The translations under genes were made by a program, and so were the position numbers. Shown here piece by piece: positions 31,499 to 34,226 of a stretch of DNA of 64,000 nt. Under the pieces are notes generated by a model. It worked only from the letters and a program-made list of their open reading frames with translations. It was not told where the DNA came from and searched no databases. The stretch is from a virus. The stretch covers positions 62,001 to 126,000 of the IMG/VR virus record IMGVR_UViG_3300025087_000037; one strand, 5' to 3'. The number at the start of each line of letters is the position of its first letter. The first letter of the stretch is position 1.

Positions 31499-32230
31499 CT
31501 ATTTCACTGCCTTAAATTCATTTAATGAATTCAATCGATATTTGACATTTGGAAGAAGGCCATCTTCTCCAATATAGCCAACTTTAATTCTTTTTCTATT
31601 ATTTTTATAATAAGATATTTGAATTATTCCGCAATCTCCTGCGGTAGCAGTTCCGCAATATCCTGCGGTAGCGGTTCCGTAATCTCCTGCGGTAGCAGTT
31701 CCGCCATTTCCTGCGGTAGCGGTTCCGTCATCTCCTGCGGTAGCGGTTCCGCCATCTCCTGCGGTAGCGGTTCCGTCATCTCCTGCGGTAGCGGTTCCGC
31801 CATCTCCTGCGGTAGCGGTTCCGTTATCTCCTGCGGTAGCGATTCCGTTATCTCCTGCGGTAGCGATTTCATTGTCTCCGGCAACATAAGTCGCGCCAAT
31901 GATCGGCTGACCATTTTTTACGAATTTCTTCATGAATTCTGTGGAATGAAAACGATCTCCGACAAAGAGAACCTTAACCTCTTCAGATTTTGCTTTCCCA
32001 TCAAATTCAATGCAAGATGTCGTTTGAAGAACAATCCATTTAGCGGTTAGATCCCAATTCAACCAAGAGGGGTTTCCTTGCCCATTCTTTAAAAAATAAA
32101 GTCCTCCAGTACATCTCGGATTAGGATCCCAATTTAAACACTTTACTTTTCCTTGCATTGGCCATTGAAAATTATCTCTAGAAATCATGTTTTCTGGGCA
32201 TGTTCTTAACCCGTAGATGTACTTCGGCAT
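31499..32230 (-). CDS. Octapeptide-repeat (G-T-A-T-A-G-D-x) protein
   Basis: 243 residues: an N-terminal globular domain (~1-115; CLNWDPNPRCTGGLYFLKNG), about 11 repeats of TAGD(N/G/D)G(T/I)A, and a short beta C-terminal domain. Regular repeats with T-x-T faces fit a beta-solenoid. Related GTATAG repeat proteins occur in other phages. Role unknown; surface, ligand or ice-like binding are only guesses. Confidence 0.65.
   Translation of the reverse strand: MPKYIYGLRTCPENMISRDNFQWPMQGKVKCLNWDPNPRCTGGLYFLKNGQGNPSWLNWDLTAKWIVLQTTSCIEFDGKAKSEEVKVLFVGDRFHSTEFMKKFVKNGQPIIGATYVAGDNEIATAGDNGIATAGDNGTATAGDGGTATAGDDGTATAGDGGTATAGDDGTATAGNGGTATAGDYGTATAGYCGTATAGDCGIIQISYYKNNRKRIKVGYIGEDGLLPNVKYRLNSLNEFKAVK
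31627..31890 (-). repeat. 24-base coding tandem repeat, about 11 units
   Basis: Units of the type GCGGTAGCGGTTCCGCCATC (plus strand) repeat every 24 bases with few changes. They encode the octapeptide repeats and are much more G+C-rich than the genome. Near identity of DNA suggests recent expansion or contraction by slippage. Confidence 0.85.
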
Positions 32231-32284
32231 TCTCTTTCTCCCTTTAACGTATTCTTTAAAATATATATGTTCTATAAAAGTTAA

Positions 32285-33154
32285 TTAATCAATTAACTTT
32301 ATTTTTTGTTTTTTATTTAAAATACTTTGTATGATAATTCCTGTTAGATCATCCATAGTTAATTTTGAAGGATCATTCTCAGGAGAACTAATTAAATTTC
32401 TTCTATATATCCATCCGGGTTCAAGAGATGAAATTTTTGTAAAAATGTCATTCCCTCGAATATTTTTTAATGAGATTGTATATTTAATAAAATTATCTGT
32501 TAATTTAGAAATTAAAATATCAGGATTATATAGTTTTCTAATTACCGGCATTATGCCATAAAATTCACTTGAGATTTGACATATTTTTATATTTTGTTCT
32601 TTGATAACAATTGTATTTTTTAACGCATAGGGTCTTAAAATACTTTTATATTTTTTCTTAATTGAGGCGAACATTTCAAATCCAGATATTGAACTAAAAA
32701 CATCTTGTTCTTCATCAATGATTCTTCGTAAAACATAAAGCCCTTTTTCAAATGCCATTTTATTATCATTTTTATATTTTATTAATACTCCAGAAATTAT
32801 ATCAGTCAACATGGGAAATTTAACTTTTCCATAATTCGTAAAACCTCTTGGACCTTTTGTCTCAAGAATATTTATATATTCTACAATATCTTTAAGATGT
32901 TTTGGGCATCCTTTATATTTCCACGCTTGCATTGAAGCGGTTTCAGTAATTCCATTTCCATGATGATCCCAACAATTTAAATCTGTTCGTCCAGAATATT
33001 CATGTGTGCATTCTATGCAACAAATTTCTTTATCTAAAATATCTTTTGTAGGAACTTTATTTGAAAAAATAATTTTATTATGATCTTGGAGTTCAAGACA
33101 AATGTATGTAATTAAAACATCCAAGTCTATCTTTTTCGAAACATAGATATACAT
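32285..33154 (-). CDS. DHH-motif protein
   Basis: 289 residues. IECTHEYSGRTDLNCWDHHGNG near residue 48 has a D-H-H triad as in DHH phosphoesterases, though the usual N-terminal D-x-D is not evident. The remaining domain is helical with IYRRNLISSPENDPSKLT near the end. First gene behind the tandem structured RNAs. Enzymatic role uncertain. Confidence 0.5.
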   Translation of the reverse strand: MYIYVSKKIDLDVLITYICLELQDHNKIIFSNKVPTKDILDKEICCIECTHEYSGRTDLNCWDHHGNGITETASMQAWKYKGCPKHLKDIVEYINILETKGPRGFTNYGKVKFPMLTDIISGVLIKYKNDNKMAFEKGLYVLRRIIDEEQDVFSSISGFEMFASIKKKYKSILRPYALKNTIVIKEQNIKICQISSEFYGIMPVIRKLYNPDILISKLTDNFIKYTISLKNIRGNDIFTKISSLEPGWIYRRNLISSPENDPSKLTMDDLTGIIIQSILNKKQKIKLID

Positions 33155-33186
33155 AACATACCTCTTCTCGTTAAAGATTCTTTTTT

Positions 33187-33320
33187 GACATACCCGTTGT
33201 TTCTTCCATTGAGGTATACAACGGGAAAAATACCTATGTTTGGCCCAGGGAATTAAGAGGAAGTGATGGGAGGCTTAATCCCCTGACAGATGGAAGACCC
33301 TGCTACATGAACATCCTCCC
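33187..33320 (-). ncRNA. Structured leader RNA, copy 1 (multiple pseudoknots)
   Basis: Helices: CCCGTTGT/ACAACGGG (33193, 33218), GGGAATTAAG/CTTAATCCCC (33248, 33274), GGGAGG/CCTCCC (33268, 33315) and TCTTCCAT/ATGGAAGA (33202, 33290). The last two cross the first two. Copy 2 conserves all four with a compensatory change. It lies between the promoter at 33529 and the minus-strand gene at 33154, so it is probably a 5' leader element. Confidence 0.75.
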
Positions 33321-33334
33321 TAATTTTGATTTTT

Positions 33335-33463
33335 GACATACCCGTTGTTTCTTCCATTGAGGTATACAACGGGAAAAATACCTTTAGGATAGGGAATCAA
33401 GAATTCGTCTTGGGAGGCTTGATTCCCTTCAGATGGAAGACCCTGGCCATGTGTTCCTCCCTT
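33335..33463 (-). ncRNA. Structured leader RNA, copy 2 (multiple pseudoknots)
   Basis: Same order of helices as copy 1: CCCGTTGT/ACAACGGG (33341, 33366), GGGAATCAAG/CTTGATTCCC (33392, 33418), GGGAGG/CCTCCC (33412, 33456), TCTTCCAT/ATGGAAGA (33350, 33433). In the second helix a T-A pair of copy 1 is C-G here, while loops have diverged. Offset between copies is 148 bases. Confidence 0.75.
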
Positions 33464-33528
33464 AGATTTTTAAAGTTTTCTTTTTTTTCTAAATTGATTA
33501 GAAATAAAAAAAATAAAATTCAACCTTT

Positions 33529-33553
33529 CTCATTTATTAATATATATAGTTAA
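33529..33553 (-). promoter_or_regulatory. Repeated A/T promoter element, copy 3
   Basis: Identical to copy 2 over AACTATATATATTAATAAA-TGAG on the minus strand. Downstream it continues with GGTT and ATTTTATTTTTTTTATTT, shared with copy 4. It would drive the structured RNAs and the minus-strand unit from 33154 down. Confidence 0.65.
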
Positions 33554-33573
33554 TAAAAGAAAAATTAAAAGAA

Positions 33574-33583
33574 TCTATAAATA
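33574..33583 (+). promoter_or_regulatory. T4-late-like promoter element
   Basis: TCTATAAATA includes a perfect TATAAATA, the T4 late promoter consensus, 47 bases before the plus-strand HD gene and the structural block. A similar TCTATAAGTA precedes the second structural block. Confidence 0.5.
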
Positions 33584-33629
33584 TGAAAGAACAAATTTAA
33601 AATTGGAATATATTTAAGAAAGGAAAAAT

Positions 33630-34226
33630 ATGGATAGGGGATATTTTAATAAAGAAGATTATAAAAAATGGTTGGATAAAATAGAAAAAATTTTACAAAA
33701 AAATATGACGGAAAGAGGATTTTTATTTTGGAAAGGCTTGAATGAAAAAATTCCAATGATATGGCATAGACCAGTTTCTTCATCTTTTAAATATCATCAA
33801 AAAGAAGATCTTAGAATTCCAACAATTGCTGAACATGTTTTTGAAATGATATATGCGGCAGTTCCTATTTTAGGAAGTATAAATATAAAATCAAAAACAG
33901 AAGATTGTGACACTATTCTTTTAGCTATTCTTTTACATGATGGTTTTAAATATGGAAAAACTCCTGACGAATCTAAATTTACAAATAAGCAACATGATAG
34001 AATTGTAGCAGATTTTATAGGAAAAAATAAATTGATTTTTGAACAATTATTTCAAAGCTCTAAAATTGAAATATTAGAAGAAATTGTTAGGTATCATTCT
34101 GGACCGTGGTCTCCTGATGCTAAAAAAGATTTTTGTTTTTCAAATGTTCATCCGTATGTGATGTTTGTTCATTTATTAGATAATTTAAGTTGTAAAAATT
34201 TGTTAAAAAATGGAGAATATGAATGA
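33630..34226 (+). CDS. HD-domain phosphohydrolase
   Basis: 198 residues. IAEHVFEM (first His), LLAILLHDGFKYGK (HD pair) near residue 92, HSGPWS near 153 and VHLLDNL (last Asp) near 183 form a metal-dependent HD hydrolase site. Substrate likely a nucleotide or cyclic nucleotide. First plus-strand gene behind the late-like promoter, behind a GAAAGGAAAA site. Confidence 0.8.
   Translation: MDRGYFNKEDYKKWLDKIEKILQKNMTERGFLFWKGLNEKIPMIWHRPVSSSFKYHQKEDLRIPTIAEHVFEMIYAAVPILGSINIKSKTEDCDTILLAILLHDGFKYGKTPDESKFTNKQHDRIVADFIGKNKLIFEQLFQSSKIEILEEIVRYHSGPWSPDAKKDFCFSNVHPYVMFVHLLDNLSCKNLLKNGEYE

Follow-up and report, generated by a model that had tools for sequence, protein, structure and literature searches.

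We here describe a structured leader RNA that is real and previously undescribed, known from one phage genome, in which it occurs as two tandem copies, each consisting of two interlocked pseudoknots. The window analyzed, meaning the whole stretch of 64,000 nt, corresponds to bases 62001–126000 of a virus record of 139,369 bp, derived from a contractile-tail phage with T4-like polymerase, terminase, capsid and sheath. Both RNA units lie on the minus strand between a DHH-type gene (start at 33154) and a divergent HD-domain gene (33630, plus strand), and their GC content is about 0.40 as compared with about 0.25 in the surroundings. That two such units share a set of pseudoknotted helices had been proposed in an earlier note on this DNA; the observation was confirmed, and its support is stronger than was stated there.

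Architecture of the two RNA copies

The two copies and their paired strands, all on the minus strand, are as follows.

33333–33463, minus: RNA copy 1, 131 nt; five perfect stems, with 0 of 2000 shuffles as good
33456–33461, minus: copy 1 strand a, GGGAGG; pairs with a' and is also Shine–Dalgarno-like
33433–33440, minus: copy 1 strand b, TCTTCCAT; pairs with b', in loop 1 of pseudoknot 1
33418–33428, minus: copy 1 strand c, AGGGAATCAAG; pairs with c'
33412–33417, minus: copy 1 strand a', CCTCCC; immediately 3' of c
33391–33401, minus: copy 1 strand c', CTTGATTCCCT; pairs with c
33378–33383, minus: copy 1 strand d, AGGTAT; pairs with d'
33366–33373, minus: copy 1 strand e, CCCGTTGT; pairs with e'
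33360–33365, minus: copy 1 strand d', ATACCT; immediately 3' of e
33350–33357, minus: copy 1 strand b', ATGGAAGA; in loop 3 of pseudoknot 2
33341–33348, minus: copy 1 strand e', ACAACGGG; pairs with e
33185–33322, minus: RNA copy 2, 138 nt; five perfect stems, with 0 of 2000 shuffles as good
33315–33320, minus: copy 2 strand a, GGGAGG
33290–33297, minus: copy 2 strand b, TCTTCCAT
33274–33284, minus: copy 2 strand c, AGGGGATTAAG; differs from copy 1 in a single compensated pair and a single G·U
33268–33273, minus: copy 2 strand a', CCTCCC
33247–33257, minus: copy 2 strand c', CTTAATTCCCT
33230–33235, minus: copy 2 strand d, AGGTAT
33218–33225, minus: copy 2 strand e, CCCGTTGT
33212–33217, minus: copy 2 strand d', ATACCT; with base 33211 it reads AUACCUC, the complement of the Shine–Dalgarno region of the DHH-type gene
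33202–33209, minus: copy 2 strand b', ATGGAAGA
33193–33200, minus: copy 2 strand e', ACAACGGG

Listing of every perfect Watson–Crick stem of at least 6 bp gave exactly five stems in each copy (a to e), none of them overlapping, in the strand order a b c a' c' d e d' b' e'. Copy 1 has 39 bp in all, and copy 2, whose stem c is broken by a G·U, has 34 bp. Each copy is made up of two H-type pseudoknots (a..c/a'..c' and d/e/d'..e'), the stems of which abut at the junctions of c with a' and of e with d', suggesting coaxial stacking, and the 8-bp helix b/b' ties loop 1 of the first pseudoknot to loop 3 of the second. The stem listing and the shuffles thus bear out the earlier description of the units as tandem pseudoknotted RNAs; all of the helices named at that time were found in both copies, and to these we add CCCGTTGT/ACAACGGG and AGGTAT/ATACCT. 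Strand a resembles a Shine–Dalgarno (SD) sequence and a' an anti-SD. The copies are offset from one another by 141 nt when measured at the 5' strand and by 148 nt in the 3' half; their final 51 nt, within which lies the unpaired tail UAUGUCAA, are identical, and the 5' halves have diverged. Two candidate likenesses were rejected, namely an HDV-like ribozyme with its similar strand order, on grounds of topology (a' is found inside the loop of c and not after c'), and a T-box likeness of AAGGGAGGAAC, a sequence missing from copy 2.

When each copy was subjected to 2000 dinucleotide shuffles, mean pairing was near 10 bp with maxima of 29 and 30, and none reached the observed 39 and 34 bp, respectively. 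In a scan of the whole 139-kb record using GC-weighted stems, the site ranked first in stem score. The z-scores for minimum free energy of nested folds were modest (−1.4 and −1.1), because a nested model cannot form pseudoknots and only part of the structure can be nested.

Where the copies differ by substitution, the helices are spared. Among columns of the 5' half, 3 of the 42 paired ones and 25 of the 46 unpaired ones had changed (counting gaps as changes; Fisher p about 1e-6), and when the 18 substitutions were re-placed at random on like bases, every pair survived in 0.0115% of the trials (about 1 in 9000). A compensatory change in helix c had been claimed in the earlier note; one compensated pair (C-G to U-A) indeed separates the copies, together with a change of A-U to G·U, but the copy 2 strand reads GGGGATTAAG and not GGGAATTAAG as had been given. 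This is the only compensated pair in total and, taken alone with two sequences, it is not significant. The minus strand is indicated as the RNA, because the A-to-G change is tolerated there as G·U and the plus strand would give C·A, and such a tolerated change favors an RNA over a role at the DNA level, such as an origin.

Genomic setting and search for homologues

Three further features, all on the minus strand, define the setting of the two copies.

33529–33551, minus: promoter-like element AACTATATATATTAATAAATGAG; exact at 3 sites and with 3–4 mismatches at 4 more in this phage
33158–33164, minus: GAGGTAT, SD region of the DHH-type gene; a 7-nt perfect complement of AUACCUC
32285–33154, minus: DHH-type phosphoesterase-like protein, 289 aa; assigned from motifs and from fold matches of a low-confidence model

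The promoter-like element has the consensus CTATATATATTAAT(A/T)A(A/C/T)TGA and is conserved in this phage, at 33551–33529, 23352, 55016 and 17266 of the window (minus), L003:2234 (minus), L005:5676 (minus) and L007:11082 (plus), as well as in at least four related uncultured phages (G037, G033, G028 and G043). Typically it is found 27–80 nt before a gene with an SD, in this phage and its relatives alike, but here it is separated from the start of the DHH-type gene by 375 nt, which the two copies occupy, with an A+U-rich stretch of about 65 nt 5' of copy 1. No intrinsic terminator was seen between the copies and the gene, with 0 terminator-like sites in 32200–34000. Transcription through both copies is therefore likely, considering the conserved upstream element, the long gap and the lack of a terminator-like site, and the copies probably sit in a 5' leader of about 375 nt in a minus-strand operon that comprises the DHH-type gene, other genes and tRNAs. 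As had been noted before, they are flanked by a promoter-like element of the minus strand on one side and by the DHH-type gene on the other, and a transcript start downstream of both copies, which would argue against such a leader, is opposed by the family-conserved element upstream.

In G037 the same promoter-like element is followed, at L062:10067–9826 (minus), by about 200 non-coding nt, possibly a small RNA, that close with a strong hairpin (CTGTCTTCACAG/CTGTGAAGACAG) followed by a run of T. A second motif, AAAGAACAAAT-TAAA, is located 14–85 nt before many genes of the phage studied here (33588, 37000, 14004, 55043, 57931, 60624 and others in the window, plus strand) and may represent another of its promoter classes. 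The same phage encodes a tmRNA (L005:3504–3915, minus) and about a dozen tRNAs on the minus strand. A PHROG match to a PurZ-type adenylosuccinate synthetase at L004:8477–9808 (minus) hints at 2-aminoadenine DNA, and a portal-like protein of 1114 aa (L003:15103–18447, plus) matches an HNH endonuclease in its central part, where an intein or homing element may have been inserted. At 31499–32230 of the window (minus) a protein with GDNGTATAGD-type repeats is encoded, the repeat stretch being open on both strands.

The product of the DHH-type gene gave no Pfam or PHROG match. Its one homologue found, in G037, is 35% identical and has the DxD and WDHH motifs in common with it. Using Foldseek with a low-confidence structure model (pLDDT 52, with only the C-terminal part being good), the best matches were DHH phosphodiesterases, with TM1595 on top (E 0.001) and with NrN, a SAM-AMP phosphodiesterase (PMC10600005), also among the matches; a second model, made of the DHH homologue, gave no improvement. 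The gene product is a probable nucleotide-cutting enzyme.

That the RNA belongs to no described class was corroborated, as Rfam 15 at gathering thresholds gave only tRNAs in the window, and the best local matches (E 0.25 and worse, up to 10) were far below gathering. A covariance model search, proposed earlier, was carried out with a model (R1) that recovered both copies and no further member among 44 viral records, these being this phage and 43 related by terminase. Searches with blastn against phages and plasmids found nothing real, and in viral contigs and bacterial genomes the sequence probes met chance matches only, none of which scored with the covariance model. With a descriptor of the five-helix topology, allowing any sequence, only the two copies stood out in the 1.4 Mb fetched; a looser descriptor was flooded by A+T-rich chance matches. 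Used as bait, the DHH-type gene led to the G037 homologue, which has no such leader, and the HD-domain neighbor gene led to homologues in related phages with other genes upstream. The RNA module thus appears to be specific to this lineage.

Possible functions of the tandem RNA

From the sequence we infer transcription across both copies and control in cis, together with the switch described below and any ligand or protein involved. The most likely reading, to which we give about an even chance, is that the tandem RNA is a cis-acting regulator of the DHH-type gene, the first of its operon. This reading is supported by the five stems and their absence from shuffles, the top stem score, the spared helices, the strand sense of the G·U, the GC contrast, the conserved element with an unusually long leader, the lack of a terminator and a match between d' and the SD region. 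In both copies d' and its next base read AUACCUC, complementary to GAGGTAT, which among 220 predicted starts is found upstream of the DHH-type gene uniquely; the match was noticed post hoc, and one of 7 nt to the SD region turns up in about 4% of leaders after shuffling (p about 0.04). In the folded knot d' would be held by d, leaving the SD region free, and upon opening of the knot d' with its adjoining C could pair with GAGGUAU and translation would be blocked, with the balance set by a small molecule or by a bound protein, e.g. the DHH-type protein itself. Such a switch is reasonable since pairing of d' with the SD region (−9.4 kcal/mol) is more stable than d-d' by itself (−4.9), though less so than pseudoknot 2 taken as a whole (d −4.9, e −11.8); we hold it to be possible but doubtful. 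Ordinary nested folding likewise places the SD in local hairpins. This, together with the post hoc nature of the match, the restriction of covariation to one compensated pair, no homologue of the RNA having been found, and the G037 DHH homologue without such a leader, weakens the cis-control reading. A further-reaching proposal, quite unlikely in our estimate, is that this doubly knotted, cross-linked and hitherto undescribed architecture represents a novel class of riboswitch or protein-sensing leader in phages. Such an RNA would respond to a nucleotide signal or to the state of infection, and the DHH-type phosphodiesterase under its control might degrade alarm nucleotides of the host.

Alternatively, the leader could be processed or accumulate as one or two knotted RNAs of about 135 nt, binding in trans a host or phage protein as a decoy, a defence inhibitor or part of a ribonucleoprotein, with the downstream gene being incidental. 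The high degree of structure, the tandem copies and the identity of 51 nt in the 3' half, unpaired tail included, would suit this, as would the G037 element that leads into a tRNA-like stretch and into a terminator-ended non-coding stretch, but neither copy has a terminator after it and the SD of the gene comes only about 25–30 nt past copy 2; we consider this reading unlikely. It is distinctly improbable that the knots serve stability, by stopping 5'-end-dependent decay or processing of a polycistronic mRNA/tRNA transcript; they lie close to the 5' end of a long tRNA-bearing operon and a mechanical block suits tandem copies, but about 65 nt of A+U-rich sequence precedes copy 1, and most other operons following the same promoter-like element, in this phage and its relatives, have short leaders.

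The copies might also be read as short translated leader ORFs, with the compensated pair being a coding effect. Copy 1 has GGGAGG-N5-ATG with a 17-codon ORF, and in the frame common to both copies (GIKPP..S-stop) the compensated pair is synonymous and the changes GGA/GGG, ATC/ATT and TGA/TAA are silent. However, in copy 2 the same SD-ATG leads into no more than ATGTTCATGTAG and the frame in common lacks an SD-bearing start, and five perfect interlocking stems cannot be explained by coding; we hold this reading to be very improbable. A type III toxin–antitoxin locus, in which the knotted repeats would act as antitoxin and the gene after them would encode the toxin, is brought to mind by tandem pseudoknotted RNA immediately upstream of one gene, as in ToxI and CptI. 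In the ToxIN family the antitoxin repeats are 34–36 nt, with a Rho-independent terminator between array and toxin gene (PMC5086642); here the unit is far larger (about 141–148 nt), no such terminator intervenes, and no toxin of the ToxN/CptN/TenpN type was recognized, the downstream protein having no Pfam match and being, judging from the low-confidence model, DHH-like and not ToxN-like. Differing thus in three defining features (repeat size, terminator and toxin type), the locus is hardly credible as one of this type, which was rejected.

Should the leader work in cis as proposed, an undescribed and unusually intricate fold would join the few known phage mRNA operators, and probing and reporter assays would have a defined target of 370 nt. 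Provided that the protein under control is a phosphodiesterase acting on signalling nucleotides, the phage could use the RNA to time its counter-defence. The reach of this is at present limited to one genome.

Comparison with known systems

The ROOL and GOLLD RNAs are associated with tRNA genes and are several hundred nucleotides long, as compared with units of about 135 nt here. Like the present RNA, these ornate RNAs are structured non-coding RNAs of phage genomes (PMC12286853), but the RNA studied here has no Rfam match. With the preQ1 classes and tandem glycine-type riboswitches it has in common a knotted leader, tandem copies and, possibly, a strand able to mask an SD, but it matches no Rfam class and was found in one phage only.

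In the T4 gene 32 leader, an autogenous translational operator, a coaxial H-type pseudoknot is separated from the ribosome binding site by a stretch rich in A+U (PMC3014915). The phage mRNA leader studied here is laid out correspondingly, since in copy 2 the second pseudoknot extends to 33193 and A+U-rich sequence, UAUGUCAAAAAAGAAUCUUUAACGA, runs from there to the SD. The two differ in that the pseudoknot of the present leader, of about 135 nt, is double, cross-linked and present twice and in that the gene product is DHH-like, compared with a ssDNA-binding protein in T4. With both gene and RNA differing, the nearest working parallel is still the pseudoknot of the T4 gene 32 leader.
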